Shown: positions 6,177 to 35,230, counted from the first letter of the stretch. The stretch: 51,821 bases of DNA from Candidatus Omnitrophota bacterium (GCA_026387315.1 JAPLLY010000057.1:1-51821), one strand, 5' to 3'. Numbers and translations: made by a program. Notes: generated by a model not told the origin, from the sequence alone.

Positions 6177-6188
6177 TATTTTTTTTGC

Positions 6189-6217: not shown

Positions 6218-6249
6218 AAAACTTGATTAATTTATAAAAAGGGAAACTG

Positions 6250-7134: not shown

Positions 7135-7146
7135 GGAGAAGTAGTT

Positions 7147-7257
7147 ATGCCTTGTGGAAAAAAAAGAAAAAGACAAAAGATCAAAACTCATAAGCGTAAG
7201 AAATTACGCCGCCGCCTGCGTCACTTGAAGAAGAGAGACTGGGGTGGTAAGGGTTAA
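7147..7257 (+). CDS. mS38/bS22-like mini-protein (AURKAIP1/COX24 family)
   Basis: A 36-residue, extremely basic protein begins MPCGKKRKRQKIKTHKRKK and continues with arginine-rich sequence to DWGGKG. The pattern matches the short bacterial proteins of the AURKAIP1/COX24 family, related to mitochondrial small-subunit protein mS38 and to actinobacterial bS22. Those sit in the small ribosomal subunit near the decoding centre. The ATG at 7147 follows an AAGGAG site by 6 bases, 12 bases after the hisG stop. The 3' end overlaps the next start by 14 bases. Function here is inferred from family likeness only. Confidence 0.75.
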   Translation: MPCGKKRKRQKIKTHKRKKLRRRLRHLKKRDWGGKG

Positions 7258-8224
7258 ATATCTTAACGGTGTAATCTGTTTTTGCCTTACATTGGCCTCA
7301 AGCGTTTTACCCGCCCAGGCTTTAGATACGCATAAAGAAGAGACCAGAAGTTTAAGCCACTATATTGTAGGGGTTTATTGCGAAGGCCTCGGGGATTTAG
7401 AGGGGGCGGTTGGGGAATATCAAAAGTCGTTAGAAGCTGACCCGGGAAGTTCTTGGTTGCATTTGAATTTGGCATTAGTTTTCATCCAAAAGGATAATCC
7501 GGTTTTAGCCATTAAAGAATTAAAGCAGTCGATTGAGTTTGCTCCGGAAATTGTGCAGCCGCACGCGTTATTGGCTTTAGTTTACGCCGCCCAGGATAAA
7601 GCGGATTTGGCGGACGGGGAATATATCCTGGCGCTCCAAAATGCCACGAAGTTTGAGCCAGAGAATATTGATATTTATAAGGGTTTAGGCGCGATTTATC
7701 TGCAGCAGAAGAAACTAAAACAAGCCGAGGGTATTTTTAAACTGATTCTAAATTTGGCTCCGGCAGACGCGCAGGCGCATTTTTATCTAGGCAGCATTTA
7801 TTATAATTTAGAAGATTATCCTTCCGTAGAGAAAGAGCTAAAGAGCGCGGTAAAATTAAAACCGGATTATCCTGAAGCCTTAAATTTCCTGGGGTATTTT
7901 TATCTCCAACAGGGTAAAAATATTGATCAGGCAGGCTTAATGATTAAGCGGGCATTAGTTTTTGAGCCGGAAAATGGCGCTTACCTGGATAGTTTAGGCT
8001 GGTTTTATTACAAAAAAGGAAGCTTCCAAGAAGCATTAAGCCATTTAGAAAGAGCGGCTTCTTTTTTGACTGACCCGGAGATTTACGATCATCTGGGGGA
8101 TGTTTTCTTAAAATTAGGTAATTTAGATAGCGCGAAATTGAATTGGGAGAAATCCCTGAAATTAGATTCTCAAAGCGCTAAAGTAAAAGCCAAGCTGTTT
8201 AAACTTACTAATCATGGCCAATAA
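7244..8224 (+). CDS. Secreted tetratricopeptide-repeat protein
   Basis: The 326-residue protein opens with a signal peptide (about residues 4-27, ending LPAQA) and is then almost wholly TPR repeats, about seven 34-residue units from residue 40 to 320. It is probably periplasmic and a scaffold for protein contacts. The GTG start at 7244 lies inside the mini-protein gene, giving a 14-base overlap, and its own end overlaps the transketolase start by 11 bases, so translation is probably coupled. No enzymatic domain is visible and the partner is unknown. Confidence 0.85.
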   Translation: MVRVKYLNGVICFCLTLASSVLPAQALDTHKEETRSLSHYIVGVYCEGLGDLEGAVGEYQKSLEADPGSSWLHLNLALVFIQKDNPVLAIKELKQSIEFAPEIVQPHALLALVYAAQDKADLADGEYILALQNATKFEPENIDIYKGLGAIYLQQKKLKQAEGIFKLILNLAPADAQAHFYLGSIYYNLEDYPSVEKELKSAVKLKPDYPEALNFLGYFYLQQGKNIDQAGLMIKRALVFEPENGAYLDSLGWFYYKKGSFQEALSHLERAASFLTDPEIYDHLGDVFLKLGNLDSAKLNWEKSLKLDSQSAKVKAKLFKLTNHGQ

Positions 8225-9035
8225 GCAATTAACTCCCGATGAATTAATTGTTCAGGCTCGCCAAATTCGGCGTTTGATAATTCAGATGCTCGCGCAAGCC
8301 GGTTCAGGGCATCCCGGAGGAAGCCTTTCCGCCGCGGATTTAATTACCGCGCTATATTTTAATGTCTTACGTTTTAATCCAGCCGATCCACAATGGCCGG
8401 ATAGAGACCGTTTCCATATGTCTAAAGGCCACGCCTGTCCGCTTTGGTATGCGGTCTTAGCCCAGGCCGGTTACTTCCCAAAAGAAAAATTATTCACCTT
8501 GCGGCAATTTGGTTCAATGCTTCAGGGGCATCCGGATCGCAGGACACCGGGGGTTGAATCTGCTTCCGGTTCACTTGGCCAGGGGCTTTCCATTGCTTTA
8601 GGGATGAGCCTGGCGGCAAAAGTAGATAAAAAAGATTATCGGGTTTATGTTTTATTAGGCGACGGAGAGGTGCAGGAGGGTAATATCTGGGAGGCGGCAA
8701 TGGCCTGCGGACATTTCGCCTGCAGCAACCTTTGCGCTATTTTGGATTTTAATGGTTGTCAGATTGACGGAAGATGCCAGGATATTATGGGAGTAGAGCC
8801 TTTGGCTGCCAAATGGCAGGCATTTGGCTGGCAGGTTATCGAGATTGACGGGCATGATATGCGGCAGATTCTAGCCGCGTACGATCAAGCTAAAACAATT
8901 AAAAATAAGCCGGCCATCATTATTGCCCGGACCGTAAAAGGTAAAGGCGTGTCTTTTATGGAGGGAGTAGTGGGTTTTCATGGCCGAGCTCCTACTCAGG
9001 AAGAAGCTCAGAGGGCTTTAAAGGAATTAGCATAA
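8214..9035 (+). CDS. Transketolase, N-terminal subunit
   Basis: This is the thiamine-diphosphate-binding half (273 residues) of a split transketolase, which moves two-carbon units between sugar phosphates in the pentose phosphate pathway. SGHPGGSLS near residue 31 and the TPP/Mg motif GDGEVQEGN (about 145-153) are visible, and KGKGVSFME near the end is typical. The C-terminal half is the next gene, overlapping by one base (TAATG), so the two form one enzyme. Split transketolases of this size are common in archaea and many anaerobic bacteria. Confidence 0.93.
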   Translation: MANKQLTPDELIVQARQIRRLIIQMLAQAGSGHPGGSLSAADLITALYFNVLRFNPADPQWPDRDRFHMSKGHACPLWYAVLAQAGYFPKEKLFTLRQFGSMLQGHPDRRTPGVESASGSLGQGLSIALGMSLAAKVDKKDYRVYVLLGDGEVQEGNIWEAAMACGHFACSNLCAILDFNGCQIDGRCQDIMGVEPLAAKWQAFGWQVIEIDGHDMRQILAAYDQAKTIKNKPAIIIARTVKGKGVSFMEGVVGFHGRAPTQEEAQRALKELA

Positions 9036-9964
9036 TGGTAGAGCAACTTTATCAAAGAGATGTTTATGGCCAAGCCTTAGTAAAATTGGGGTCATTGGAT
9101 AAAAATATTGTGGTTTTGGACGCGGATCTTTCCAGCTCTACCCGCACTAATCTTTTTGCCAAGCAATTTCCGGACAGATTTTTTAACTGCGGCGTAGCCG
9201 AGCAAAATTTAATGGCCACCGCGGCTGGATTAGCCAGCTGCGGCAAGACGGTTTTTGTTTCAACCTTTGCCGTATTTGCCGCGGGCCGCGCCTGGGACCA
9301 GGTGCGGGTCTGTATAAGTTATAATAATTTTAATGTTAAAATCGTAGCGACGCATGCCGGTATTACCGTCGGGCCGGATGGAGCCAGCCATCAGGCTTTG
9401 GAGGATATCGCGCTGATGCGCGTGTTGGCGAATATGAATATTATTGTTCCTGGCGATGCTCCGCAGACAGAGGGCGCGGTAATGGCTGCTGTAGATAATC
9501 CTGGGCCTTTTTATATTCGCTTAGGCAGATCCAAGGTTACTACTATTGAGAATAAAGGTGAGTTTAAATTTGGCCAAGCCCAACTTTTAACCGAAGGTAA
9601 TGATGTTACGATTGTCGCCTGCGGGATGATGGTCGCCCAGGCGCTGGCAGCAGTAAAAGATCTGGCGGCTAAGGGTATTGGAGCGCGCTTGATTAATATG
9701 CATACTATTCGGCCGCTAGATAATGCCATTATCCTTAAGGCAGCAAAAGAAACTAAGTTGATTATTGTTTGCGAAGAGCATAATATTATCGGCGGTTTGG
9801 CTTCCTGTATCGATGAAGTAGTTGCCGAGAATTTTCCGGTTAAGGTAATCCGCGTGGGCGTGCGTAATCGCTTCGGCCAATCGGGCGAGCCGGAAGAGCT
9901 ATTAAAAGAGTATCATTTAAGCAGCCTGGATATCGAGAAAGCGGTTTTAGACAATATCTCTTAG
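9035..9964 (+). CDS. Transketolase, C-terminal subunit
   Basis: The 309-residue partner of the upstream gene carries the pyrimidine-binding and C-terminal domains. VLDADLSSSTRT near residue 28 and the conserved glutamate in NCGVAEQNLMATAAGLA (about 51-66), which activates thiamine diphosphate, are present. A regulatory C-terminal domain follows from about 185. Its stop codon lies inside a 32-bp perfect palindrome that probably acts as the 3' end structure of this transcript. Confidence 0.93.
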   Translation: MVEQLYQRDVYGQALVKLGSLDKNIVVLDADLSSSTRTNLFAKQFPDRFFNCGVAEQNLMATAAGLASCGKTVFVSTFAVFAAGRAWDQVRVCISYNNFNVKIVATHAGITVGPDGASHQALEDIALMRVLANMNIIVPGDAPQTEGAVMAAVDNPGPFYIRLGRSKVTTIENKGEFKFGQAQLLTEGNDVTIVACGMMVAQALAAVKDLAAKGIGARLINMHTIRPLDNAIILKAAKETKLIIVCEEHNIIGGLASCIDEVVAENFPVKVIRVGVRNRFGQSGEPEELLKEYHLSSLDIEKAVLDNIS

Positions 9965-9994
9965 TGTAGGGGAGGTTTAAACCTCCCCTACACT
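9963..9994. terminator. Perfect 32-bp palindrome at the end of the transketolase gene
   Basis: The 16-base arm AGTGTAGGGGAGGTTT is followed at once by its exact complement. It includes the last two bases of the transketolase stop codon. There is no T-run, so it is either a 3' stabilising hairpin or a Rho-dependent/bidirectional end; it may also be a repeat element. Confidence 0.55.
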
Positions 9995-10012
9995 AGTCAA
10001 AAATTTAAGTTC

Positions 10013-10984
10013 ATGAAGCAATCTTCTTCTGTGCTAGCCATTAAATCCTTCGCCAAATTAAATCTTTATCTGCAGGTTTTAAACAAGCGTAAAGATAACT
10101 TTCATAATTTGAGCACTTTGTTCGCGCGTATTGATTTAGCCGATACGCTAACCTTTAGAAAACGCAGCGATAGTTTAATTAAGATTAAGTGTGACAGCCG
10201 GCAGGTGCCTAAGGATAAGGCTAACCTTTGTTATCGCGCCGCGGCATTATTAAAGCAGGAACTTAAGTTAAGTTTAGGGATAGAGATAGAGCTTAAGAAA
10301 CGCATACCCGTGGGCGCGGGTTTGGGCGGAGGTTCTTCTAACGCTGCCAGCGTGCTTTTGGGATTAAATAGATTCTGGAATTTAAATTTATCTAGAACAA
10401 GATTAGTAAAATTAGGGGCTAAATTAGGCAGTGATGTCCCGTTTTTTATATATCAGGCGAAATTTGCTTTAGGGAGCCAGCGGGGAGATAAAATTAAGCC
10501 GTTAATTTCTTTGAATAAGCTTAAGCTTTGGTTTATCCTGGTTTATCCCAATATTAAGGTTTCTACGCCTTGGATTTATCAGAAATTTGATGTTTATTTT
10601 TCGGCTGGCAGGACTTTTTCTCGGTTGACCCCGCACCTTGCGCGAATTCAAGATGGTAAAAAGCTGAATAAAAAACAAGGTGCGGGGTTGACAAGGCCAG
10701 GCTGTAATGTTAAAATATTGACTTCACAGCTACTGAAAAAAGGTAAGGTAGTTGATACCCGTTGTCTGTTTAACGGCTTAGAGGTTATCACGAGCAATCT
10801 TTATCCTGTAGTCAAACAGGTCAAAAACGCCCTTTTCGGTATAGGGTTAGATAAAGTAATGATGTCCGGGAGTGGCCCAGCGGTATTTGCAATCTGTGAT
10901 TCTTGTATGCAGGCTCAGAGTTTAAGGAGAAAGTTGTGTAAGCAATATAAATCCTGGAAGGTTTTTGTAGTTTCTTGCGTTTAG
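10013..10984 (+). CDS. ispE: 4-diphosphocytidyl-2-C-methyl-D-erythritol kinase
   Basis: IspE phosphorylates CDP-methylerythritol in the non-mevalonate isoprenoid pathway. It is a GHMP kinase: SFAKLNLYLQV near residue 12 and the phosphate loop PVGAGLGGGSSNAA near 100 are clear, as is MMSGSGPAVFA near residue 283. Its 323 residues exceed the usual 280-300. The excess lies around residues 205-226, where a palindrome with 13-bp arms has inserted in frame. No ribosome-binding site is evident before the ATG at 10013. Confidence 0.94.
   Translation: MKQSSSVLAIKSFAKLNLYLQVLNKRKDNFHNLSTLFARIDLADTLTFRKRSDSLIKIKCDSRQVPKDKANLCYRAAALLKQELKLSLGIEIELKKRIPVGAGLGGGSSNAASVLLGLNRFWNLNLSRTRLVKLGAKLGSDVPFFIYQAKFALGSQRGDKIKPLISLNKLKLWFILVYPNIKVSTPWIYQKFDVYFSAGRTFSRLTPHLARIQDGKKLNKKQGAGLTRPGCNVKILTSQLLKKGKVVDTRCLFNGLEVITSNLYPVVKQVKNALFGIGLDKVMMSGSGPAVFAICDSCMQAQSLRRKLCKQYKSWKVFVVSCV
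10628..10688. repeat. AAGGTGCGGGGT palindrome inside ispE (family C)
   Basis: ACCCCGCACCTTG at 10628-10640 is the exact complement of 10676-10688. The same core occurs at the glmU 3' end and twice before rplI. Frame is kept, adding a basic loop to IspE. Confidence 0.8.
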
Positions 10985-11005
10985 TGGTGGCAGGAGGGCG
11001 TAGGC

Positions 11006-11410
11006 GTGGAGATAACGGAAGTTAGAATAATATTAAAGGATTCTCAGGATAAGAAATTAAAAGCCTACGCTACGGTTACTTTTGATAATGTTTTTGTGGT
11101 AAGAGATATTAAGGTAATCCAAGGAGGTACGGATTTATTTATCGCCATGCCTTCTCGCAAAGTGAAGCATGCTTGTCCCAAGTGTGCTTTTAAAAATGAA
11201 TTGCGCAGTAAATATTGCAATCAATGCGCCGCGCTCCTGCCAGTTGAAGCTAATCCGCAGCGCGCGGAAGAGGTACCTAGCAGCCAGGCCGAGCACAGAG
11301 ATATTGCTCATCCGATAACGCAGTCATTCAGGGAACACCTACAGAAAAAAGTTCTTGAGGTTTATACTCAGGAAAAAGCCAAGGCGCATTCTGGCCTGTC
11401 TGGCGAATAA
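11006..11410 (+). CDS. spoVG: SpoVG-family protein with inserted zinc ribbon
   Basis: The N-terminal 52 residues are typical SpoVG (EITEVRII, then VVRDIKVIQGG and FIAMPSRK), a small DNA/RNA-binding regulator. Between MPSRK and the second conserved block HRDIAHPI (about residue 97) lies a zinc ribbon, CPKC followed 14 residues later by CNQC, plus a linker. The total of 134 residues compares with about 85-100 for ordinary SpoVG. The GTG start at 11006 is 7 bases after AGGAGGG. The insertion may add nucleic-acid or protein binding; its role is not known to me. Confidence 0.87.
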   Translation: MEITEVRIILKDSQDKKLKAYATVTFDNVFVVRDIKVIQGGTDLFIAMPSRKVKHACPKCAFKNELRSKYCNQCAALLPVEANPQRAEEVPSSQAEHRDIAHPITQSFREHLQKKVLEVYTQEKAKAHSGLSGE

Positions 11411-11413
11411 CTT

Positions 11414-11484
11414 TGGGATGTCGTCCAATGGTAGGACTCCAGAATTTGGGTCTGGCTATCATGGTTCGAATCCATGCGTCCCAA
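11414..11484 (+). tRNA. tRNA-Gln (TTG)
   Basis: Acceptor TGGGATG/CGTCCCA, anticodon arm CCAGA-ATTTGGG-TCTGG with anticodon TTG, T-arm CATGG-TTCGAAT-CCATG, discriminator A. CCA is not encoded. It lies four bases after the spoVG stop. Confidence 0.95.
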
Positions 11485-11645
11485 TGAAAGTATATTACAA
11501 GAAAGGATAAATATGCCGCCAAAAACTGAAATATTAACGATAATGCGGTAGTATTTCAATGAGATAAAAACAAGTTGCCACTTTTTAGAGGGCAAGTTAA
11601 TCGTATTTTGAGTAAAAGGGTTTTCAGCATTAACTAATTATTTTC

Positions 11646-11674
11646 TTGCTATACTTGTATAACAATGTTATACT
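11646..11674 (+). promoter_or_regulatory. Promoter and operator of the toxin-antitoxin pair
   Basis: TTGCTA at 11646-11651 and TATACT at 11669-11674 are 17 bases apart. The 17-bp perfect palindrome GTATAACAATGTTATAC (11657-11673) fills the spacer and overlaps the -10, the expected place for autorepression by the antitoxin. Confidence 0.75.
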
Positions 11675-11745
11675 TATATTGCAGGTTCCGCCTGCGGCGG
11701 AGTTTCACTAGATAAAAACCTTTTGTACTTAAGGAGAGTGAGATT

Positions 11746-11964
11746 ATGACTTTATTAAAAGCATTTCGTTTACCGGCTGGGTTAGTTAACAGGTTAGCCT
11801 CATTGGCAAAAGCCACGCATCGCAGCGAAACTTTTTATGTTACTGATGCCTTAGCTTACTATTTGGAAGACTACGCTGACGCGCAAATCGCCAAAGACCG
11901 TTTTAATGATCCTAAATCCAGAATTATTTCTGGCGCGGAACTAAGGAAAAGACTTGGTGTATAA
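11746..11964 (+). CDS. RelB/RHH-type antitoxin
   Basis: A 72-residue protein with a ribbon-helix-helix start (LLKAFRLPAGLVNRLASLAKATHRSET) followed by a helical tail that would wrap the toxin. It would bind the palindromic operator in its own promoter and neutralise the toxin made from the next gene. The start follows AAGGAGAG. The coding end overlaps the toxin start by about 10 bases, the usual coupled arrangement. The fit to the RelB/StbD-like group is by pattern, not by search. Confidence 0.85.
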   Translation: MTLLKAFRLPAGLVNRLASLAKATHRSETFYVTDALAYYLEDYADAQIAKDRFNDPKSRIISGAELRKRLGV

Positions 11965-12214
11965 AGTTGCCTATCTTGATTCTGTTGAGGTAGAACTTAA
12001 GAGGCTAGATAAATCTACGGTTAAGAAAATTCTTACCCGCATCGAGGCCTATCTTGCCCAGGATCCTAAAGGATTAGGAAAGCCATTAAAAGGAGATTTC
12101 CAGGGGTATTGGCGGTACCGTTGGGGGGATTACCGCGTTATTTATAAGATAGCGGAACGAGAGATTTTGATTCTTGTTTTGCGGATTAGCAACAGAAAAG
12201 ATGTATATAGATAA
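11954..12214 (+). CDS. RelE/ParE-family toxin
   Basis: An 86-residue protein with the compact RelE fold pattern: VAYLDSVEVELKRLDKSTVKKIL helices, then GDFQGYWRYRWGDYRVIYKI and a final strand ILVLRISNRKDVYR. Members usually cut mRNA in the ribosome. Arginines in YWRYRWGDYRVIY and the terminal RKDVY block sit where catalytic residues of RelE lie. The start is TTG at 11954 or GTG at 11957, both inside the antitoxin end. The stop is two bases before glmU. Confidence 0.88.
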   Translation: MVYKVAYLDSVEVELKRLDKSTVKKILTRIEAYLAQDPKGLGKPLKGDFQGYWRYRWGDYRVIYKIAEREILILVLRISNRKDVYR

Positions 12215-12216
12215 AT

Positions 12217-13497
12217 ATGAAAAAAAAGATCGCCGTAATAATTTTAGCCGCGGGTAAGAGTACGCGCATGAAATCTGAGTTACCTAAAGTATTGCATCAA
12301 CTTTGCGGCAGGCCGATGCTCGGCTATGTCCTGGATTTAGCAGGCGCCCTGAAACCCGCGCAGATGGTCGCGGTTTTAGGATATCAGCAGGAGTTAGTGC
12401 GTAAGTTTATACCTAAAGGCATTAAAATTGCCATCCAGAAAAAACTTAGGGGCACAGCGGATGCCGTAAAAGCGGGGCTGGCAGAATTAAAAGGTTTTAA
12501 AGGCACGGTGCTAATTCTTTACGGAGACAATCCTCTTTTAAAGAAAGAGACACTCAAGAAGCTCCTGGATTACCATTTAGAGAATAATGTTGATGCTACT
12601 TTATTAACCGCGCGACTAAAAAAACCTTTTGGGTATGGCCGGATTACGCGCGATAAATATTTTAGTATCTGCGGAGTCGTCGAGGAGAAGGATGCGGATG
12701 AACTGCAGAAAGATATTAAAGAGATTAATACCGGGATTATGGCGTTTAAAAAAGAAAAGTTGCTGGCCAACTTAGGGTTAGTTCGGCCGAATAATCGTAA
12801 AAAAGAATATTATTTAACTGATATAATTGAGATTTTTGCCAAGAAAAATTATCTGGTTGATGGTTTAAAAATTAAGGATACTCAGGAAGCCCTGGGGGTC
12901 AATACCCGCGCGGAATTAGCCAAAGCTAACTGCCTGATGCAAAAAACGATTAATGATAAATTTATGCGGGATGGCGTAACGATAATTGACCCGGTATCTA
13001 CCTTTATTAATTTCGGGACGGCGATTGGCAAGGATACGGTGATTTATCCCTTTACAGTAATTGAAAGGGATGTTAAAATTGGAAAACGTTGTTTCCTGGG
13101 GCCTTTCGCGCATCTGCGTGAAGGTGTCAGGTTGGGAGATGATGTGACTGCCGGTAACTTCATTGAGATGGTGCGTTCCCGGATTGGCGCGAAGACATTG
13201 ATTAAACATTTTTCTTACCTGGGAGACTGCTCTGTAGGCGCAAACGTGAATATCGGAGCCGGGACAGTTACGGCTAATTTCGACGGTAGAAATAAAAATT
13301 ACACGCTGATTAAAGATAATGTTAACATCGGTTCGGATACCGTGATGGTTGCTCCGGTAAAAATCGGTAAATTCGCGATTACCGGCGCCGGTTCGGTGGT
13401 GACTAGAAATATCCCGGACAAGGCAGTGGTGGCAGGGGTTCCGGCGAGAATTTTAAGGAAAAGGAAGGAAGGGCGGAGTGGACCCCGCACCTTCTAA
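12217..13497 (+). CDS. glmU: Bifunctional GlcN-1-P acetyltransferase / GlcNAc-1-P uridyltransferase
   Basis: GlmU makes UDP-GlcNAc, the precursor of peptidoglycan and lipid A. Residues 1-230 are the uridyltransferase, with LAAGKSTRMKSELPK at 10-24 as nucleotide motif. The rest is a left-handed beta-helix acetyltransferase with hexapeptide repeats and the catalytic region IKHFSYLGDCSVG. At 426 residues it is shorter than the usual 450-460, and the last residues (GRSGPRTF) are encoded by one arm of a family C palindrome, so the natural C-terminus has probably been replaced. No ribosome-binding site is evident. It supplies the lpx genes further along. Confidence 0.94.
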   Translation: MKKKIAVIILAAGKSTRMKSELPKVLHQLCGRPMLGYVLDLAGALKPAQMVAVLGYQQELVRKFIPKGIKIAIQKKLRGTADAVKAGLAELKGFKGTVLILYGDNPLLKKETLKKLLDYHLENNVDATLLTARLKKPFGYGRITRDKYFSICGVVEEKDADELQKDIKEINTGIMAFKKEKLLANLGLVRPNNRKKEYYLTDIIEIFAKKNYLVDGLKIKDTQEALGVNTRAELAKANCLMQKTINDKFMRDGVTIIDPVSTFINFGTAIGKDTVIYPFTVIERDVKIGKRCFLGPFAHLREGVRLGDDVTAGNFIEMVRSRIGAKTLIKHFSYLGDCSVGANVNIGAGTVTANFDGRNKNYTLIKDNVNIGSDTVMVAPVKIGKFAITGAGSVVTRNIPDKAVVAGVPARILRKRKEGRSGPRTF

Positions 13498-24971: not shown

Positions 24972-25751
24972 ATGCGGATACATCCTAGCGCGATAGTTTC
25001 TCCTAAAGCAAAATTAGCCGATAACGTTAGCGTCGGGCCGTATAGTATAATCAGCGATAACGTGAGTATCGGCGCGGGTACTAAAATCGGCGCGCATTGC
25101 GTTATTGAGGGCAATACGACGATCGGTAAAAAATGCGAGATATTTACTGGAGCCGTAGTGGGCAGCCGGCCGCAGGACCTTAAATTTAAAGATGAAAAAG
25201 TTTTTTTAGAGATTGGTAATAACAATATTATCCGCGAGTATTGCACGCTTAATCCGGGGACCGCTGAAGGCTCTAAGACTTCTGTCGGCGATGATAATTT
25301 GCTGATGGCCTATTCACATGTTGCCCATGATTGCCGGGTAGGTAACGGTTGTGTTTTAGCCAACAATAGCACCCTGGCCGGCCATGTCAGCATTGAAGAT
25401 AAAGCAGTGATCGGAGGCCTGGTGGCTATTCATCAGTTCACGCGCATCGGCAGGCTGGCAATTATCGGAGGATGCTCTAAGGTGGTGCGAGACATTCCTC
25501 CGTTCTCCACCTGCGATGGCCACCCGGCGCGCGTCTATGGCTTAAACCTTATCGGTTTAAGGCGCAACGGCATTGGCCATAATTCGATTAAGAAAATTGA
25601 TCAGGCGTTTAAATTGATATTTAATTCCGGTTTATCCGCCAAACACGCCTTAGCCAGAGTAGAAAAAGAAATTGAAAAAACCGAAGAGATAATTTATCTG
25701 GTTAATTTTGTCAAAAGCTCTGAGCGCGGTTTGGCCCGCTCTTGTCGATAA
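24972..25751 (+). CDS. lpxA: UDP-N-acetylglucosamine acyltransferase
   Basis: LpxA adds the first acyl chain to UDP-GlcNAc. The 259 residues are the normal length: a hexapeptide beta-helix (about 1-190) and C-terminal helices. The catalytic histidine is in YSHVAHDCRVG (near 120), and CDGHPARVYGLNLIGLRR is a family hallmark. There is no clear ribosome-binding site. The stretch GCCTCCAATAAATAATG containing the start codon also occurs at 17220-17236 after rpsR. Confidence 0.96.
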   Translation: MRIHPSAIVSPKAKLADNVSVGPYSIISDNVSIGAGTKIGAHCVIEGNTTIGKKCEIFTGAVVGSRPQDLKFKDEKVFLEIGNNNIIREYCTLNPGTAEGSKTSVGDDNLLMAYSHVAHDCRVGNGCVLANNSTLAGHVSIEDKAVIGGLVAIHQFTRIGRLAIIGGCSKVVRDIPPFSTCDGHPARVYGLNLIGLRRNGIGHNSIKKIDQAFKLIFNSGLSAKHALARVEKEIEKTEEIIYLVNFVKSSERGLARSCR

Positions 25752-25771
25752 AGAAATCGGCTTAAAAACAA

Positions 25772-25816
25772 GGGGACGGTTCTCTTTTTTATATTATAAA
25801 AAAGAGAACCGTCCCC
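25772..25816. repeat. Family A palindrome
   Basis: GGGGACGGTTCTCTTTTTTA and its complement, between lpxA and lpxI. Confidence 0.9.
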
Positions 25817-25835
25817 GAGATTTCCAAGATTAAAT

Positions 25836-26639
25836 ATGAAAAAGATAGGTTTAATTGCCGGAAATAGAAAATTTCCCCTGCTTTTTGCCGCCAGCGCCAA
25901 GAAAAAAGGCTGTAAAATTATCGCGATTGCCATTAAAGGCGATACCTCCCCAAAATTAAAAAAATTCGTGGATAAAATTTATTGGCTCAAGCTTTCTGAA
26001 TTCCAAAAAATGTTTGATATATTTAAAGCCGAAGCCGTAGAGTCGGTGGTGATGGCCGGGCAAATCAGCCCGCGCAGGTTATTTAGCCAAGAAACTCAAT
26101 CCTGCCCGCAGTTAAGGCAGATACTGGATACGCTTAAAGATAAGCAGGCGGATACATTATTTGGAGCAGTAGCCAAAAGGTTAGAAGCTGCCGGGCTTAC
26201 CCTTCTGGATTCCACCACTTTTATCGAAGAATATTTACCTAAAAAAGGCACACTTACAAAACAAGAGCCGGATTTTGATACCTGGGAGGATGTTTATTTT
26301 GGTTTGAGTTTAGCTAAAGCCGTGGCTAATCTGGATATCGGCCAGACGGTTGCCGTTAAAAGCAAAACTATAGTCGCGGTGGAGGCTTTTGAGGGGACGG
26401 ATAATTTAATCCGCCGGGCGGGTAAACTTGGCCGGGGCAGGGTGGTAATTGTTAAGGTGAGCAAACCTAAGCAGGATATGCGTTTTGATATTCCGGTTAT
26501 CGGGTTAAATACAATTAAGAATTTAGTTAAGGCAAGATGCCGCTGCCTGGCTTTTGAAGCCGGTAAAACACTTTTTATTGATCAAGAAGAAAGTATCCGG
26601 CTGGCAGACCGCCGAGGCATTTCCATAGTGGCAGTTTAA
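25836..26639 (+). CDS. lpxI: LpxI-family UDP-2,3-diacylglucosamine hydrolase
   Basis: A 267-residue protein of the DUF1009/LpxI family, which makes lipid X from UDP-2,3-diacylglucosamine and replaces LpxH in many bacteria. The start KKIGLIAGNRKFPLLFAASAKKKGCKI, the middle GQISPRRLF, and the C-terminal KVSKPKQDMRFDIPVIGLNTI agree with the family. Placement after lpxA supports the role. LpxB and later lipid A genes are not in the window. No ribosome-binding site is evident. Confidence 0.92.
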   Translation: MKKIGLIAGNRKFPLLFAASAKKKGCKIIAIAIKGDTSPKLKKFVDKIYWLKLSEFQKMFDIFKAEAVESVVMAGQISPRRLFSQETQSCPQLRQILDTLKDKQADTLFGAVAKRLEAAGLTLLDSTTFIEEYLPKKGTLTKQEPDFDTWEDVYFGLSLAKAVANLDIGQTVAVKSKTIVAVEAFEGTDNLIRRAGKLGRGRVVIVKVSKPKQDMRFDIPVIGLNTIKNLVKARCRCLAFEAGKTLFIDQEESIRLADRRGISIVAV

Positions 26640-26643
26640 AACT

Positions 26644-26763
26644 GGGGACGGTTCTGTTTTTTAATACCGTCATTCCCGCGAACCACGTAGACCTACGCGG
26701 TCTACATATATGTAGACCGCGTAGGTCTACACAGGTAAATCAAGGAAAAATAGAACCGTCCCC
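26644..26763. repeat. Second composite A/B repeat
   Basis: Family A outer arms with the family B palindrome nested at 26687-26730. The whole 120-bp unit differs from 14552-14671 at only a few positions. Confidence 0.9.
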
Positions 26764-26856
26764 CTGATTTTAAAGTAGCTTTTTTCTCTTGACAGCAGCT
26801 GCTTCTGATGTAAAAATATGGTTAGTTTTAAAGGTGCTCAAAAAAAGGGAGGAACT

Positions 26857-27132
26857 ATGCCACGGATAGCTGAAACAAAACCAGCGGAGTTCAAGTTATA
26901 CGCCCCTGGGGCCAAGAAGGTTGTGGTTGCCGGAAGTTTCAATAAATGGGATACCCAGAAATTGCTCGCTAAGAAGGATAGTAAGGGCAGTTGGGCGGCC
27001 AAGGTCGCGCTTAAGCCGGGAAAACACGAGTATAAGTTTATCGTAGACGGAGCCTGGATAAATGATCCTTGTTGCACCTCTTGCGTAGCCAATTCCGTCG
27101 GGTCGCACAATTGTGTGCTTGAGGTTAAATAG
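26857..27132 (+). CDS. CBM48/glycogen-binding-like small protein
   Basis: A 91-residue single-domain protein. EFKLYAPGAKKVVVAGSFNKWDTQKLLAKKDSKGSW and GKHEYKFIVDGAWINDP match the early-set/CBM48 domain of branching enzymes and AMPK beta subunits, which bind alpha-glucans. The start at 26857 has GGGAGGA four bases upstream. A cluster of cysteines (PCCTSC) near residue 73 is unusual and could bind metal. Stand-alone CBM48 proteins of this size occur in many bacteria; the partner enzyme is unknown. Confidence 0.85.
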   Translation: MPRIAETKPAEFKLYAPGAKKVVVAGSFNKWDTQKLLAKKDSKGSWAAKVALKPGKHEYKFIVDGAWINDPCCTSCVANSVGSHNCVLEVK

Positions 27133-28249: not shown

Positions 28250-28278
28250 TTGACAAAGGGCTCAGGCAGTGTTACATT
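28250..28278 (+). promoter_or_regulatory. Promoter of the fimbria-like operon
   Basis: TTGACA at 28250-28255, 17-base spacer, TACATT at 28273-28278. Transcription would start near 28285. Confidence 0.65.
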
Positions 28279-28284
28279 TGTTAT

Positions 28285-28384
28285 ACAAAGCTAAGGTAAG
28301 AATATTCGGGATCCTTTGCTGGAGGGCAAAGGAGCCACGTGATTCAACCGGATAAGACCGAAATTTGATCTGTCCGGTTTTTTA
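28285..28384 (+). ncRNA. Leader RNA with terminator, candidate attenuator
   Basis: From the predicted start the leader holds a CCTTTGC/GCAAAGG hairpin (28313-28332), then an intrinsic terminator AACCGGA/TCCGGTT followed by six T (28346-28383). The first gene begins only 40 bases later. A terminator between promoter and gene suggests conditional read-through. I could not match the aptamer part to a known riboswitch. Confidence 0.5.
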
Positions 28385-28422
28385 TTTTTCTATTGCAATT
28401 GAAGCTAAATAATGGTAGAATT

Positions 28423-29838
28423 ATGAAAATGCAAAAAGTATTTAAGATAATCATTTTTGGCCTAATAATGCTGGCAGGCTCTGGAATTTTCTGCCGGCAA
28501 GCCTTCGCTTTTGACTTAATTGTTGATGGAAAATCTCAGCTGGTGCTTGACCAAAGCACCCTTTCCAATGGCACCTTTTCCCAGGAAATAATATTTAGGA
28601 CAGTAGACACGGTTAATAATGAATATGAGGTACGTCAGTTTATTGATGCCCCGCTGACGAGCGGGTCACATACTATCGGCGGGGATAATTTCAAAGTTAG
28701 GGGGATTCGCGGCTCGAATGTATATGGTAAATTATTTATTCCCACCGGGGGCCCTAACTGGGGTATTGACGTAAAGAATAATGAGCCTATTTATCATTCT
28801 AATGCTGCCGGAACAGCTGATTTATTTACTCTAGTGTATGGCATTACAACTTCGCCGCCACTGTCCCCCGGCTATTACACCGGCCACATTACTTTAGTTT
28901 TGATCCCGATTAATTCACCTGAGAGTCAAGAGATCCAACGCATTGATGTTATTGTGGATATTCCTAATGATGGCGGCTCGTTATCGGTTTCCGTGGCTCC
29001 GGCAGAAGGAGCAAGCTCGCTTATACTTAATCCTTTAGCTGCTAATGATCCGCGCGGCGCGGCTAACGCCGTGGTTACGATTAATAGTTCTTTTAACGGG
29101 CCATTCAGGATTATGCAGGTGCTTCCGGGGCCGATTCAGTCTGGCGATGGTAAATTTATTGATAATAGTAACCTTCTTTTTAGTATTCCTGATGCCCAAA
29201 AAGGCGTGGCGATAAATCAGCCGACTCCGGTTTCAAACAATATCCAGACAATATATTCTTCCCGCCCTGACGGCGGCGCGGATAAGGCCTTTACCATCGC
29301 CTATTCTTTAGCCGATCCATTAAGCCTGGCAGCCGGTAACTACCGTTCGCGTATTCAGTACCTTTTGGAATCCGCGGGCAAACAGGTAAGTTTAGGAGCT
29401 CTGGATTTAGAAATCCGGCAGGAGCGTATCTTTGAAATTTCTATCTCTCCGCAGGATCAGCGCTATAGTATTGATTTTGTGAATCTTAAACCTAGCGATG
29501 GCCCGCGTTTAAATGAAGTGTTGATTGAAGTAAAATCAAATCTTGGCCGGCCGTATCAGGTAACCCAAAATGTTCTTTCGGGACTGGTAAGCGGCGAAGG
29601 AGAAAAAATTCCTTCCCAGTATTTTTCACTGCAGGCTCTTTCGGTAAATGATACTACTAAAGGAAATTTAAAGATTGCCAGTAAAATTCCGGTTGAAAAA
29701 GGCAATGTCCTGTTATTTGTTTCCGATGCCAATGGTTCCGCTGATAAATTTAAAGTCGTTTATGAATTAACTTGCCCAGCTGATTTAAGGGCGGGCAATT
29801 ATTCATCGCGAATAACTTATACTTTAACCGAAATTTAG
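28423..29838 (+). CDS. Secreted protein with three repeated beta domains, probable adhesin or tip subunit
   Basis: The 471-residue protein begins with a signal peptide ending QAFAF (about residue 29). Three related domains of about 145 residues follow, each closing with a similar strand pair (PGYYTGHITL, AGNYRSRIQY, AGNYSSRITY) and each with a Q/N-rich opening strand. These look like immunoglobulin-like beta sandwiches. It is the first gene of a locus with two pilin-like genes, a chaperone-like gene and an outer-membrane gene, so a tip or adhesin role is inferred. The ATG at 28423 is chosen because it starts the signal peptide. I do not recognise a named family. Confidence 0.7.
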   Translation: MKMQKVFKIIIFGLIMLAGSGIFCRQAFAFDLIVDGKSQLVLDQSTLSNGTFSQEIIFRTVDTVNNEYEVRQFIDAPLTSGSHTIGGDNFKVRGIRGSNVYGKLFIPTGGPNWGIDVKNNEPIYHSNAAGTADLFTLVYGITTSPPLSPGYYTGHITLVLIPINSPESQEIQRIDVIVDIPNDGGSLSVSVAPAEGASSLILNPLAANDPRGAANAVVTINSSFNGPFRIMQVLPGPIQSGDGKFIDNSNLLFSIPDAQKGVAINQPTPVSNNIQTIYSSRPDGGADKAFTIAYSLADPLSLAAGNYRSRIQYLLESAGKQVSLGALDLEIRQERIFEISISPQDQRYSIDFVNLKPSDGPRLNEVLIEVKSNLGRPYQVTQNVLSGLVSGEGEKIPSQYFSLQALSVNDTTKGNLKIASKIPVEKGNVLLFVSDANGSADKFKVVYELTCPADLRAGNYSSRITYTLTEI

Positions 29839-29905
29839 AGAGGAGGGAGAGATGTTTAAAAATAACAACTCTAAACAAAAAGAATCAAAAAAGGAGGTGA
29901 TAAAA

Positions 29906-30529
29906 ATGAAAAACATACTTATTTGTATGGTTTTCGTAGTGGCTGCCTTTTGCGCGACAAGCGCTTGGGCAAGGGTTACGAGTGTTCCCATTACCGTTAA
30001 GGCTGAGATTCCTAAAATGACTGAAGGATTATCAGTTGGCATTAGCAAGGTAACCGGTGAGGCCGAGAATGGTACGGGTGGGGAGTGGACTACTCTGCCA
30101 GCAGGATCACCGCTCGACTTCGGAATATTGAAGTGGACTACCACGAACAATATCAATATTTTTCTGCCTACCTGCTATTTCGCTGTTGATATTGGCGTGC
30201 AAGACAACTCTGGATCTACCTGGACCATAATTCATGAATTTACGTCACTCAACAATTCATCAGGCGGTAACATTGATGATAAAGTTAATGTTACTTTTGC
30301 AAACCAGGCTGATAAAACTCACGGCACAACACTTCTGTATACTAGTTTCCTTGGCAGTGGGAATATTTCTTATACTAAGGAGGCCTTAGGGAAGGGTTGG
30401 TTACGAATATATTATGGTATTGGTACTGGAAATCTCACGAAACCTGATGCCTCGGGTGTAACACCGATTGGCATGGATACACCATACGGACAATATTCTG
30501 GTTCTGTTAAGATTACGCTTGTACCGTAA
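29906..30529 (+). CDS. Pilin-like secreted protein 1
   Basis: A 207-residue protein whose ATG at 29906 follows the near-perfect site AAGGAGGTGAT. The signal peptide is MKNILICMVFVVAAFCATSA ending WA. The mature part is beta-rich, with FLPTCYFAVDIGV, GGNIDDKVNVTF and a C-terminal YSGSVKITLVP, the kind of final strand used in donor-strand exchange by chaperone-usher subunits. It is a close paralogue of the next gene. An upstream in-frame ATG at 29852, with its own GGAGG site, would add 18 polar residues before the signal peptide and is less likely. Confidence 0.72.
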   Translation: MKNILICMVFVVAAFCATSAWARVTSVPITVKAEIPKMTEGLSVGISKVTGEAENGTGGEWTTLPAGSPLDFGILKWTTTNNINIFLPTCYFAVDIGVQDNSGSTWTIIHEFTSLNNSSGGNIDDKVNVTFANQADKTHGTTLLYTSFLGSGNISYTKEALGKGWLRIYYGIGTGNLTKPDASGVTPIGMDTPYGQYSGSVKITLVP

Positions 30530-30567
30530 TTCGGGGTATTTTGTGTACCATAAAGGTGGTGGTAAAA

Positions 30568-31152
30568 ATGAAAAACATACTTATTTGTATGGTTTTCGGA
30601 GTCGTTGCCTTTTGCGCGACAAGCGCCCGGGCTGATTTAGCTCAAACCGTTACTGTTAATGCTAATATTGCTACATTGGCTGATGGATTAAACGTCACTG
30701 TAAATAAAGTTATTGATACTGTTTGGAATGTAGATACGTCTATCAATTTCGACACTTTAGCCTGGGATACCGTAAACCAGATCTTTCTGCCCAACTGTTA
30801 TTACGCTGTGGATATTGTTGTAAGCGATAACACCGCAACTGAATGGACGGTGACGCATACCCGCGCGTCTCTCGTGGGCCCAGGAGGAGCCAACATTGAT
30901 GATAAAGTTAATGTTGTTTTCGTTAAGCAGACTAGCCCTAGCGTTGGCATCGAGTTGAAAAAGCTTAGTTTCGCCAGCAGCAATGATGTTGCTTATGCTA
31001 AAACATTCTTAGTGGGTGGTTGGTTACGTATATATTATGGTGTGGGTACTGGAGATCCAGCAAAGCCTGATGCTCCGGGCGTAACACCGATTGGCTTGGA
31101 TTCGCCGGCAGGAACATATACTGGTTCTGTCACCATTACGCTTACACCGTAA
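30568..31152 (+). CDS. Pilin-like secreted protein 2
   Basis: A 194-residue paralogue of the preceding gene: the signal peptides are nearly identical, and FLPNCYYAVDIVV, GANIDDKVNVVF, GWLRIYYGVGTG and the final strand YTGSVTITLTP line up throughout. The ATG at 30568 follows AAGGTGGTGG. The pair has arisen by tandem duplication. The presence of two similar subunits suggests a major and a minor subunit of one surface fibre, though nothing in the sequence says which is which. Confidence 0.72.
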   Translation: MKNILICMVFGVVAFCATSARADLAQTVTVNANIATLADGLNVTVNKVIDTVWNVDTSINFDTLAWDTVNQIFLPNCYYAVDIVVSDNTATEWTVTHTRASLVGPGGANIDDKVNVVFVKQTSPSVGIELKKLSFASSNDVAYAKTFLVGGWLRIYYGVGTGDPAKPDAPGVTPIGLDSPAGTYTGSVTITLTP

Positions 31153-31191
31153 TTGATACAGGTATAACTGTAATATGATAAAGGGGGTATT

Positions 31192-32076
31192 TTGTTTGCT
31201 CGACTACGTATAATAAGTATTTGGTCTTGTTTTATTGGCAGCCTTTTTGTTTCGATTGCGCAAGCAAATCAGCTGCCTTTTATGAGTCAGTCAAAAATTC
31301 GAGTGGTGGTTTCTCCGGGAGAACGCGGTTTCGGAGAAATCACGCTGGATAATCCGACTGCTGAGGCCAAAAGCATGCATCTTTATCTGGAAGATTGGTA
31401 TTATCTTCCGGGAGGCACAGGGGCTAAGGAATTTCTTCCGGCGAATTCTATTCCCACTTCGGCTTGTCCGTGGATGAGCTTCTCTCCGGCAGATGTAATG
31501 GTGCCCGCGTTTGGGAAACAGAGAATAAACTATTCCGTTAATGTCCCTCCTGACGCCACCGGCGCGCGTTTTGCCACTCTCTTTTTTGAGACATCGATTA
31601 GTAAAAGCATGCTTTCGGGCTCCGGCCGTTCCGCGGGGCTTGATTTTAATGTCAGGGTGGCTACTCTGTTTTATGTGGAAGTAAAGGGCACGATAGAGAG
31701 AACTGCTAAAATCAGCAATTTAAATATCCAGCCTTCCAAAGAGGCAAAAGGATCTTTGGATCTTACCTTGGATTTTGAAAACACCGGCAATACCGACATC
31801 ACTACTTCCGGGAATTTCAACCTGATGAATAATGAGGGCTTGGTCAGCGCCCGCGGGGCATTTAATAATGTTTATACTTTTCCGGGTGGAAAAGGGAGTT
31901 TCTTAGGTACCTGGAAAGACAAAATCCCTGCCGGTGATTATGACCTGGTAATAACCGTTGATTTGGGAAAAGCGCTTACCGACGCTGGCATCGGCAGAGG
32001 GCCGGTGATGACCAAAGAAGCCTCGGTTACAATCGGAGAGAACAATCAAATTGTTCAGATCGGCCAGCTTCAGTAA
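31192..32076 (+). CDS. Periplasmic pilus-chaperone-like protein
   Basis: A 294-residue protein with a signal peptide (ending AQAN) and two beta-sandwich domains. The first has the order seen in FimC/PapD-type chaperones: KIRVVVSPGERGFGEITLDNP, then the edge region around QRINYSVNVPPDATGARFATLFFET. The second domain runs from about residue 170 (NFENTGNTDI). The TTG start at 31192 is preceded by AAGGGGGT. Place between the pilin-like genes and the outer-membrane gene supports a subunit chaperone. Likeness to FimC is remote, so the assignment is an inference. Confidence 0.65.
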   Translation: MFARLRIISIWSCFIGSLFVSIAQANQLPFMSQSKIRVVVSPGERGFGEITLDNPTAEAKSMHLYLEDWYYLPGGTGAKEFLPANSIPTSACPWMSFSPADVMVPAFGKQRINYSVNVPPDATGARFATLFFETSISKSMLSGSGRSAGLDFNVRVATLFYVEVKGTIERTAKISNLNIQPSKEAKGSLDLTLDFENTGNTDITTSGNFNLMNNEGLVSARGAFNNVYTFPGGKGSFLGTWKDKIPAGDYDLVITVDLGKALTDAGIGRGPVMTKEASVTIGENNQIVQIGQLQ

Positions 32077-32077
32077 T

Positions 32078-34921
32078 ATGTTTTTTATTGCTGGGAGGCC
32101 GCCTAAAAAATCCCGCCAGAGTACAGGGCTTTCTGGAAAATTCACTTCTTTTCTAAGTATTTCCTTTCTAGTTTTTAGCTTATTTTTTTCTATTATCATC
32201 ACTCCACATTCAGCTTTTGCTTATAGCCAGATTGCCGAATTTCTCTGCGAGGAAGGCATCAAGGATTTAAATAAGGGTGATTTTCCGGAGGCAGAGGATG
32301 AATTTAACCGAGCTCTTATCGCCGAACCAGGTTATCCGCCCGCAATTTACTATCTTGAGCTGATCAGCGAAATGTCAGGTAAAGTTACTAGCGGCGGCAA
32401 GTTTAACATTCCGGCTTATTCTTCTTCTGCCGGATGGGATCGGCAGACGGTAATGGAGAATGCCTTGGATCAGGCCAAAATCAGGGAAACTATGGGAGAA
32501 GATCAGGGGTTTAGCGCGCAGGACCAGTTTACTGGCGGTATTGTCAGAAAGAAGTACCCAATAAGCTACCTGCTCAATGACCCCAGCCTATCTATTCAGC
32601 AGCCAATAGAGATTGAAGAAGGTAAATATGTGATTATTAGCGGCAGTAATATTAAGCGTTTTCTGGTGGTGCAGCCGGAACTTCTTTACGCGGAAAAGTT
32701 AAATGACAATGAAATTTCTGTCATGGCTAAAAGCAGGGGTTTAGCCTCGATTGTTGTCTGGGATGATTTCGGACGCACGAGCCTAGAGTGCACCGGCATT
32801 ATGCCTATTCCTGAGGGTTTGACCCTGGAAGAAACAATGCGTAAGGAAGAGAAAAGTATGGGTAATTTTAAGTTACGCTATGACCTGGACTGGTATTCTT
32901 ATTATACCGGGAACAGGTTAGAAACAATCCAGCGCAGTGGAAGTTATTCCTGGATTCATAATTTGCGTATGGAGGGGGCTACTCCTTATGGGTTACTTGA
33001 CGCGGCAATAACAGAGCGTGTACTGTCTACTACTACTGATATGACTTCTATCAGCGCGGGCCTGACTAACGGAAAGTTGGGTGATTTTAAGGGTTTTAAG
33101 CTTCGGGCGGGAGATTACAGTTCCAATTTCAATAATTTGGCAATATCGGGTTCGAGTTTAAGGGGTGTTTATTTTTCTTCGCCCGCCTTCAATAATAAGC
33201 TTGATTATGCTATTTTCTGGGGAAAGGAAAATGGCGGACGTTACGGGACATTGTCTACTACTTATAAATCATTGCACTCCTTTATGAGTGGTTTTAATTT
33301 AAACTTTTCTCCGGTTACTTGGCAGAATTATAAGTTTAGCGTAGCCCATGGCTGGGGGCGCGACCGGCAGGATTATCTTAAGGATTATGCTTATGATTTC
33401 ATGGGAAGCTGGAATTTTAAGCATTACGGTTATAGCTATGAAATCGCCAGCGACACTAAGAATTTAGCCCAGTTATTTACCAGCCGTTATAACGGGGATA
33501 AGCTCTACGCGAATCTACAGCTTAGAGATATTGATAAGCAGTTTGTGAGTATCACCGGCTCCGGATGGCGGCAGGGAGAATTCGGCGCTCTTTTAAATTT
33601 AAACTACCGGCCGACAGATAAGTTTACCTTTACCCAGCGTGTTGATATATACCGCGACCGGCTTTATCCGGCAGAAGATAATCTTAATCGTTTTAACGAG
33701 GATCTGGATAGCACGCTTACTTATAAGTTAGACCCGCTAACTAACCTGGAAGCCAGCTATACCCTTCAGAATGACCTGGGTAAATTATCGCAGACAAGAT
33801 ACCAGTCTTCCGGCCTTGGCGCGAACAGGCTATTCTCGTTATTCGGTAAAGAGGTTTCTACCTATTTGAAATATTCTCATCAAGACAATCAGAATTTTTC
33901 CGCTTCCGCCCTGGATTACACCAACGAAAAGTTTTACGCGGGATTACGTTTTAGCGTTATCGGCGCCTTATATTATTATTTTAATCGAGAGTTGAATTGG
34001 CTTACCGGGCGCAACATCGGCAGCCGCGTACGGCCCAATGTTATGGAAACTGGCCTGGACTGGTATGATCGTATCGGCAGGTCTCCGTTTTGGGGATCGA
34101 TGCGTTTTACTTATCGGGATGAAGAACGGGCAGACTCGCCGCTATCATTTCTTTCCGGCGAAGATTATATCGAGGGTTATGGCGAACTTTCATACCGGCC
34201 TGCTGATGGCCAGGAAGTTTACGCTTCTGGCAGGATTAGAAATGTCTGGAAAGAAAATTCTACGGTTACCAGCCGGGTGGAGGCTAGTTTTAACGTAGGG
34301 ATGAAACTGCTTTGGGATACCGGCCTGCGTTGGGATGCTGTCTCTACCATCCAGGGCTATGTCTTTAAAGATTACAATTCCAATGGCCTGATGGAGCGTG
34401 ATGAGCCTCCGGTCTTTGGTATCAAGGTTTGGCTGGGTAAGAATAAATCTCAGATTACCGATGAGCTTGGGTATTTTAGATTTGTTAATGCCCGCGGTAA
34501 GGTAGCTTATGTAACTCTGGATACCGGGACTCTGCCGGCAGGTTATATGTTGACTGTTCCGGTGACCCAGGAGATTCCTATTGCCAATGCCGCCGCCTCT
34601 GGAGTTTATTTCGGGATAACTTCGCGTTCAGAGATTCGCGGTATAGTTTTTGAAGATTTAAACCAAGACAATGAATATTCCATGGGAGAAAAAGGCGTTC
34701 CCGGAGTAGCGATAACTCTGGATGGCAATAAAACAGTGATCACCAGCGTAGACGGCAGCTATGCTTATTCGCAGGCGCTTCCCGGGGAACATGAGCTAAT
34801 TGCGGATTTAGACTCAATACCGGTTTATTACTTACCTTTAGTTGCCCTGAAAAAGAAATTCCCCCTGCAAGAGGGGGAATCTTCGGTTTGGAACATTCCT
34901 CTGCGTAAAATACAAAAATAG
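32078..34921 (+). CDS. Outer-membrane usher-like protein: TPR, CpaC-N-like, barrel, SdrB-like domains
   Basis: A 947-residue protein starting one base after the chaperone stop. In order: hydrophobic signal region (about 24-48), a TPR pair (FLCEEGIKDLNKGDFPEAEDEFNRAL), a domain like the N-terminus of CpaC-type secretins (IEIEEGKYVIISGSNIKRFLVVQP then GLASIVVWDD, about 185-255), a long beta-strand-rich part with alternating aromatic strands typical of an outer-membrane barrel (about 270-750), and two SdrB/carboxypeptidase-regulatory-like units (GYVFKDYNSNGLMERDE and GIVFEDLNQDNEYSMGE). It is in the usher position of the locus but has neither a recognisable plug nor canonical usher N-domain. Confidence 0.7.
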   Translation: MFFIAGRPPKKSRQSTGLSGKFTSFLSISFLVFSLFFSIIITPHSAFAYSQIAEFLCEEGIKDLNKGDFPEAEDEFNRALIAEPGYPPAIYYLELISEMSGKVTSGGKFNIPAYSSSAGWDRQTVMENALDQAKIRETMGEDQGFSAQDQFTGGIVRKKYPISYLLNDPSLSIQQPIEIEEGKYVIISGSNIKRFLVVQPELLYAEKLNDNEISVMAKSRGLASIVVWDDFGRTSLECTGIMPIPEGLTLEETMRKEEKSMGNFKLRYDLDWYSYYTGNRLETIQRSGSYSWIHNLRMEGATPYGLLDAAITERVLSTTTDMTSISAGLTNGKLGDFKGFKLRAGDYSSNFNNLAISGSSLRGVYFSSPAFNNKLDYAIFWGKENGGRYGTLSTTYKSLHSFMSGFNLNFSPVTWQNYKFSVAHGWGRDRQDYLKDYAYDFMGSWNFKHYGYSYEIASDTKNLAQLFTSRYNGDKLYANLQLRDIDKQFVSITGSGWRQGEFGALLNLNYRPTDKFTFTQRVDIYRDRLYPAEDNLNRFNEDLDSTLTYKLDPLTNLEASYTLQNDLGKLSQTRYQSSGLGANRLFSLFGKEVSTYLKYSHQDNQNFSASALDYTNEKFYAGLRFSVIGALYYYFNRELNWLTGRNIGSRVRPNVMETGLDWYDRIGRSPFWGSMRFTYRDEERADSPLSFLSGEDYIEGYGELSYRPADGQEVYASGRIRNVWKENSTVTSRVEASFNVGMKLLWDTGLRWDAVSTIQGYVFKDYNSNGLMERDEPPVFGIKVWLGKNKSQITDELGYFRFVNARGKVAYVTLDTGTLPAGYMLTVPVTQEIPIANAAASGVYFGITSRSEIRGIVFEDLNQDNEYSMGEKGVPGVAITLDGNKTVITSVDGSYAYSQALPGEHELIADLDSIPVYYLPLVALKKKFPLQEGESSVWNIPLRKIQK

Positions 34922-34933: not shown

Positions 34934-35230
34934 TTACCGGGTATAAATTGTTTTTACTTCCGTGGTAACTTTTTCTCCTTGGGCAAGAAGGATTTCTTTC
35001 CTCTCCTCCTTTTCTATAATTTCTTCTCCTACCGTGGCAGTGGAGTTTTTATTGGCGACATCTTCTCGCTGGTAATTCCTAATTAACACCTCCGGAATAC
35101 GAGCCGGAGCATTTACTCCCGGAATAGCAGGTATAGTGCATGACATGCTGATAGTCACACTATCACCAGCCCAGACAGTGGAAACCATCAAAAGAACCAG
35201 TAAACCCGTTAAAATCCCCTTCCTTTCCAT
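34934..35230 (-). CDS. Small secreted protein, possibly fimbria-related
   Basis: A 98-residue protein on the opposite strand, converging on the fimbria-like operon with only 12 bases between the stop codons. Signal peptide MERKGILTGLLVLLMVSTVWA, then a short hydrophobic stretch DSVTISMSCTIPAIPGVNAP that resembles the opening strand of the two pilin-like proteins, and a charged tail rich in glutamate. AAGGAGGT lies six bases before the ATG. Expression appears to be controlled by the RNA element at 35266-35427. Function unknown. Confidence 0.7.
   Translation of the reverse strand: MERKGILTGLLVLLMVSTVWAGDSVTISMSCTIPAIPGVNAPARIPEVLIRNYQREDVANKNSTATVGEEIIEKEERKEILLAQGEKVTTEVKTIYTR

Follow-up and report, generated by a model that had tools for sequence, protein, structure and literature searches.

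A candidate divergent chaperone–usher-like pathway for surface fibre assembly in Omnitrophota

Does a run of secreted-protein genes in a Candidatus Omnitrophota genome encode a machine that builds surface fibres, and would such a machine belong to a known class? The question is raised by a 51,821-nucleotide stretch of DNA (GCA_026387315.1 JAPLLY010000057.1:1-51821, hereafter the window), which is one contig of a 1.80 Mb draft genome. A first-pass annotation made from the sequence alone had placed a fimbria-like export locus at 28250-34921 and suggested that its five genes may form a separate class of fibre assembly machine. Our analysis indicates, with a probability of about 0.72, that the locus encodes a divergent chaperone–usher-like pathway in which a surface fibre is assembled through donor-strand exchange. 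Five consecutive open reading frames (ORFs) were found on the plus strand at 28393-34921, separated by gaps of 11-39 bases and with the last two overlapping (Table 1). The five annotated genes are real, and the system reaches further, to 35230, through a sixth conserved gene on the opposite strand.

The gene order, in which a three-domain subunit is followed by one or two pilins, a chaperone and an outer-membrane protein, recurs in relatives across Omnitrophota, which answers the call of the first-pass annotation for a comparison with related genomes. Among 44 non-redundant loci having at least 4.5 kb upstream, the chaperone gene lies immediately 5' of the outer-membrane gene in 42, and the complete gene set is present in 38. 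Because identical gene order repeats in many diverged genomes, chance is excluded. Matches to the outer-membrane profile at E 1e-30 or better, a few of them of partial length, were obtained in 105 of 384 sampled genomes of the phylum, and the host genome carries one outer-membrane gene, one chaperone gene and two pilin genes. The locus also occurs in Ca. Velamenicoccus archaeovorus LiM (L095), a predator with a closed genome, where its genes, the small sixth one included, lie at 5621-12570. Of the 49 named loci from relatives in the GTDB contig collection, nearly all carry Omnitrophota or Omnitrophica in their titles and the others are untitled 'bacterium' records; the pathway is so far confined to Omnitrophota, the search beyond the phylum having consisted of three DNA-level patterns only, which leaves absence elsewhere unproven.

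The chaperone received no family assignment when searched as a single protein against Pfam and NCBIfam. A profile built from 23 relatives matched EcpB (E 7.5e-4) and EfmWxLIP1 (E 0.005), and a profile of 62 relatives matched the same two proteins with E-values of 3.5e-4 and 6.5e-5, respectively. With hhalign, the chaperone aligned to EcpB (probability 92, E 6e-7) and to none of the other Ecp proteins. These matches support the chaperone-like two-domain protein of the first-pass annotation, which is, judged by profile similarity, remotely related to EcpB, the chaperone of the E. coli common pilus. The protein was further compared on the chaperone criteria of Pakharukova et al. (PMC4654587), which include a super-conserved proline, the donor residues and the P0 position. 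The super-conserved proline (EcpB Pro60) corresponds to P99 and is kept in 60 of the 62 chaperones. The G1 donor residues at EcpB positions 111/113/115/117 correspond to 150/152/154/156; three of these are hydrophobic and one, 154, is mixed, and position 156 is a large P0 residue, as typical of non-classical chaperones.

The WxLIP domain was matched by 17 of the 62 chaperones, and this result, together with the EfmWxLIP1 match, speaks for a different arrangement, a non-exported periplasmic or surface coat of the WxL/WxLIP kind in which no fibre would form, the chaperone-like protein acting as a lasting partner and the barrel protein as an anchor. Insertion of a WxLIP strand into WxL has itself been predicted (PMC10599100), and this was also counted for the coat. 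However, no WxL domain was among the 25 Pfam families listed for 49 pilins, the C-terminal membrane helix of WxLIP was not seen in these chaperone sequences, and a large usher-like barrel is encoded in the same operon as subunits with free N-terminal strands, all of which make a coat improbable.

The free strands are predicted in the pilins. The two pilins are paralogous (phmmer E ~1e-57), as the first-pass annotation had it, and as single proteins they were without a family in Pfam and NCBIfam; individual pilins gave stray NCBIfam matches, to Shiga toxin among others, which were dismissed as chance. An AlphaFold2 model of pilin 2 based on 49 sequences (pLDDT 94.6, pTM 0.87) places residues 1-18 outside any strand. 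Across the 49 aligned sequences, positions 6, 8 and 12 of the mature N-terminus are hydrophobic, position 10 is a small Ala and position 13 is usually Pro; a G-x-Y-x-G-x-V-x-I-x-L pattern with invariant Y and G is conserved in the last strand. Such a combination, read from the alignment, is expected for a donor strand on an open-groove subunit. Because the first 18 residues are unpaired and carry the conserved alternating motif, the donor strand is predicted to be N-terminal rather than C-terminal. The donor-strand-like C-termini described in the first pass were rejected, as in the model this end of the protein forms a strand that is already paired. A link between the pilins and WxL, considered from the C-terminal motif, was not detected.

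The best Foldseek match of the pilin model was to Pyrodictium cannulae (9h8b, E 3e-3) and the fourth was to Pyrobaculum bundling pili (7ueg, E 0.056). These matches would fit self-assembly of the TasA or cannulae kind, in which the subunits have a jelly-roll fold, with strand-exchange polymerisation taking place outside the cell and the barrel exporting monomers only, but both are weak (TM ~0.35), and a dedicated EcpB-like chaperone and an usher-like barrel favour assembly at a pore, so that we consider self-assembly quite improbable.

The outer-membrane protein has a length of 956 residues from a TTG start and 947 from the first internal ATG. The TPR region, CpaC-like N-domain, long barrel and SdrB-like units noticed in the first pass were all recovered (Table 1), and an AlphaFold2 model built from 21 sequences (pLDDT 78.8) did contain the expected barrel of more than 20 strands. 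Turns on the presumed periplasmic side span 2-8 residues and outer loops 3-17 residues, and the even/odd hydrophobicity of the strands was above all 1000 shuffles. Strands 329-343, 346-357 and 369-379 are not amphipathic, and therefore the barrel may have 24 strands and an inward hairpin; the predicted number is 24-26. After the last barrel strand come two β-domains, matching the usher feature of paired C-terminal β-domains. When the model was searched with Foldseek, the top 12 matches were all FimD or PapC (E 1.2e-19 to 1.6e-13, ~790 columns), followed at lower ranks by SdrD (4e-12), the FimD barrel alone (5e-10) and porins (~1e-8). We read this as an usher-like architecture, not as proof of descent. 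The mixture of secretin and usher proposed in the first pass was not borne out, as Pfam found no secretin domain in the protein or its family members and the sole part common to secretins is the small CpaC-type N-domain (PF13629), whereas in its architecture, as in its best structural matches, the protein resembles ushers. A TPR region joined to a barrel is the layout of polysaccharide exporters, and AlgE was among the lower Foldseek matches, but a TPR-porin-type exporter of polysaccharide or small molecules with accessory surface proteins as its neighbours is very unlikely given that usher matches are ahead by many orders of magnitude, that the operon is without a glycosyltransferase or synthase and that the barrel gene is linked to pilins and a chaperone.

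In the three-domain secreted protein, the division into three domains was upheld by their mutual homology (hhalign probability 99.4-99.8). The domains also align weakly to the pilins over most of their length (probability 58-67, E 5e-5 to 1e-4), and in a distant locus (L131) the three-domain gene is replaced by two genes of one domain each. The protein is best read from these alignments as a single chain of three pilin-like units that is perhaps placed at the fibre tip. Proteins of ~500 residues in four other loci (L116, L120, L130 and L073) combine a glycoside-hydrolase-like GH26 domain (E 2e-10 to 2e-4) with a C-terminal pilin domain, and their gene lies immediately 5' of the three-domain gene in L116, L120 and L073. 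These fusions point to modularity of the pilin domain and were counted in favour of a chaperone–usher-like pathway. Similar ORFs are found in other genomes of the class and none in the window. As a separate observation, the three-domain protein matched NCBIfam NF058581, 'CPR Pam pilin', below the cut-off (E 3e-4), with matches in 5 of 17 members (best 6e-6). Assignment to that family was rejected as the match is under its cut-off; a link between phyla is possible on this sub-threshold similarity. A literature search for this 'Pam pilus' CPR pilin family found no paper.

The sixth gene, overlooked in the first pass, is taken to be part of the system. Homologues of its small secreted product were found in 55 of the 60 loci with sequence to inspect, in all 55 on the strand opposite the outer-membrane gene. 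Most of the mature proteins start with a motif like D-S-V-T-I-x-V-S-C-T-I-P, as the pilins do, and the spacing between motif and signal peptide equals that in the pilins. A charged linker and a conserved C-terminus, KTIYSR for example, come next, and there is no pilin body. Profiles of the small proteins and the pilins align N-terminus to N-terminus (E 7.6e-4 vs 0.3-0.5 for controls), and the pilin motif scored on the small proteins beats nearly all shuffles in 27 of 55 (at most 2 of 200 shuffles reaching the score). The bodiless donor strand could perhaps cap the last subunit as a fibre terminator, which offers a simple and testable idea for stopping fibre growth.

From the gene order, homologies, barrel, unpaired pilin N-terminus and common motif found by computation, we infer how binding, exchange, export, termination and function might proceed. 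Sec would carry the two pilins and the three-domain subunit, which have signal peptides, across the inner membrane. Each subunit would then be completed in the periplasm by the G1 strand of the EcpB-like chaperone, and the chaperone would hand it over to the outer-membrane barrel. At the barrel, the chaperone strand in the previous subunit would give way to the free N-terminal strand of the subunit that arrives next, and the fibre would elongate and exit through the pore. The role of the usher N-domain would fall to the TPR and CpaC-type domains, and that of the usher C-terminal domains to the two C-terminal β-domains. The final unit would be the small convergent protein, ending or anchoring a fibre that may be used for attachment to other cells or surfaces.

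A number of results weigh against such a pathway. The usher families PF00577 and CooC_C (PF15976) were present in 0 of 40 diverse outer-membrane members; at the genome level, PF00577 was found in 0 of 125 genomes and PF15976 and PapD_N (PF00345) each in 0 of 58, with positive E. coli controls. PF00345 was likewise not among the families listed for the 62 chaperones. The outer-membrane profile gave no sequence alignment to EcpC with hhalign, and the pilins and three-domain protein gave nothing against EcpA, EcpC and EcpD. At the structural level, the longest loop between barrel strands, at 17 residues, is too short for a plug domain, the outer-membrane model has a pTM of 0.52, and its usher matches have low TM-scores (~0.3 of query) and a large root-mean-square deviation. 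Pilin 2 had no significant match in the PDB and no chaperone–usher pilin in the top 50. Finally, the super-conserved EcpB Arg89, which anchors the C-terminal carboxylate of the subunit, is not kept, the aligned position 128 being Ala, Ser or Gly in the chaperones; its role might be taken over by two conserved residues near the N-terminus, K35 and R37, by analogy with the classical Arg8.

No named chaperone–usher clade is claimed for the locus because the defining features were tested and were not found. The first-pass view of a fibre assembly locus whose sequence falls into no known usher clade thus holds, and neither of the two outcomes named there as refuting it occurred, whereas its wholly separate class is better replaced by a divergent chaperone–usher-like pathway. 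An independently evolved or extremely diverged translocon is a tentative and rather unlikely extension; it would have a barrel with no plug, in which TPR and CpaC-type domains act as the gate, a subunit fold other than Fim/Pap, fused subunits, enzyme-headed pilins, a headless donor terminator and a chaperone linking WxLIP with chaperone–usher chaperones.

Compared with known systems, the locus shares with the ECP-type alternative pathway (E. coli EcpA-E) a related chaperone, the G1 pattern with its large P0 and invariant proline, N-terminal donor segments and the placement of chaperone and outer-membrane barrel in one operon. It differs in an outer-membrane protein and pilins that do not align to EcpC and EcpA, in the non-conserved Arg89 and in having a three-domain subunit and a headless donor protein. 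Classical and archaic pili (Fim, Pap, Csu and CupE) resemble it in the predicted barrel with paired C-terminal β-domains and in the N-terminal donor extension, whereas the locus lacks PF00577, PF00345 and a plug-sized insert, has an unmatched pilin fold and combines TPR and CpaC N-domains with probably 26 strands. The Gram-positive WxL/WxLIP cluster is similar in its chaperone profile and in predicted strand insertion into a partner, but has no outer membrane or barrel, and no WxL domain was found here. TasA, archaeal bundling pili and cannulae show a weak, non-significant pilin fold resemblance and the strand-exchange principle but no usher-like barrel. The Tad secretin CpaC (RcpA) has the PF13629 N-domain in common, whereas the protein described here has no secretin domain and a large single-chain barrel.

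Of the chaperone–usher pili, the archaic type is the most widespread; it has been described in proteobacteria and cyanobacteria and also in some further phyla, Deinococcota among them (PMC10104325). Type-4a and Tad pili are covered by the main comparative study of Omnitrophota (PMC10066038), from which the words 'usher', 'fimbria' and 'chaperone' are absent; our literature search found no paper linking Omnitrophota with ushers. If the proposed pathway is correct, a chaperone–usher-like pathway of its own exists in a common phylum whose bacteria are nano-sized and in part predatory, including a species with a closed genome and a proteome; for V. archaeovorus the proteome is PXD025008, named in PMC12583861.

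Table 1. Features of the locus in the window and of GH26-pilin fusions in other loci.
Feature	Position	Strand	Basis and details
Three-domain secreted subunit, 481 residues	28393..29838	+	D1 28510-28968, D2 28969-29421, D3 29422-29835; tandem pilin-like domains
Pilin 1, 225 residues	29852..30529	+	ORF, homology; N-terminal donor-like motif ~29981-30013
Pilin 2, 203 residues	30541..31152	+	Model, alignment; mature start ~30634, donor-like motif ~30643-30672
Periplasmic two-domain chaperone, EcpB/WxLIP-like	31192..32076	+	294-residue ORF, profiles, hhalign
Predicted G1 donor strand of chaperone	~31633-31677	+	Alignment to EcpB; residues 148-162
Outer-membrane usher-like protein	32051..34921	+	ORF, model, Foldseek; overlaps chaperone gene by 26 nt
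TPR-type helical region	32219..32377	+	Helices 57-109 in model; TPR in 31/40 members
CpaC-type N-domain PF13629	32603..32779	+	E 4.8e-6, above cut-off; 35/40 members
Predicted β-barrel, residues 274-756	32870..34318	+	26 strands by DSSP (24 if hairpin 329-357 luminal)
Two C-terminal SdrD_B/carboxypeptidase-regulatory-like β-domains, probably periplasmic	34349..34909	+	Pfam, E 7.9e-13; model
Small secreted protein, 98 residues	34934..35230	-	Signal peptide, donor-strand motif 35129-35158, charged linker, conserved C-terminal tail
GH26-pilin fusions	L116 6763-8277, L120 2366-3877, L130 9566-11095, L073 392-1855		

Around the operon, proteins of ~900 residues with TPR are encoded 5' in three loci (L056 2105-4885, L075 2304-4997 and L090 3071-5854). 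Their matches to the outer-membrane profile are weak (57-72 bits), Pfam finds little but TPR in them, and similar TPR-only matches are common in the order; they were not counted as members of the outer-membrane family, as they match mainly through the TPR region. Four loci (L048 and L081-L083) contain two or three chaperone genes and additional pilins each, which suggests duplicated subunit sets. Upstream of the locus, at 24972-27132 of the window, lie genes for an LpxA-like protein, LpxI and a CBM48/AMPK-type glycogen-binding protein, and the lipid A genes among them fit the presence of an outer membrane.

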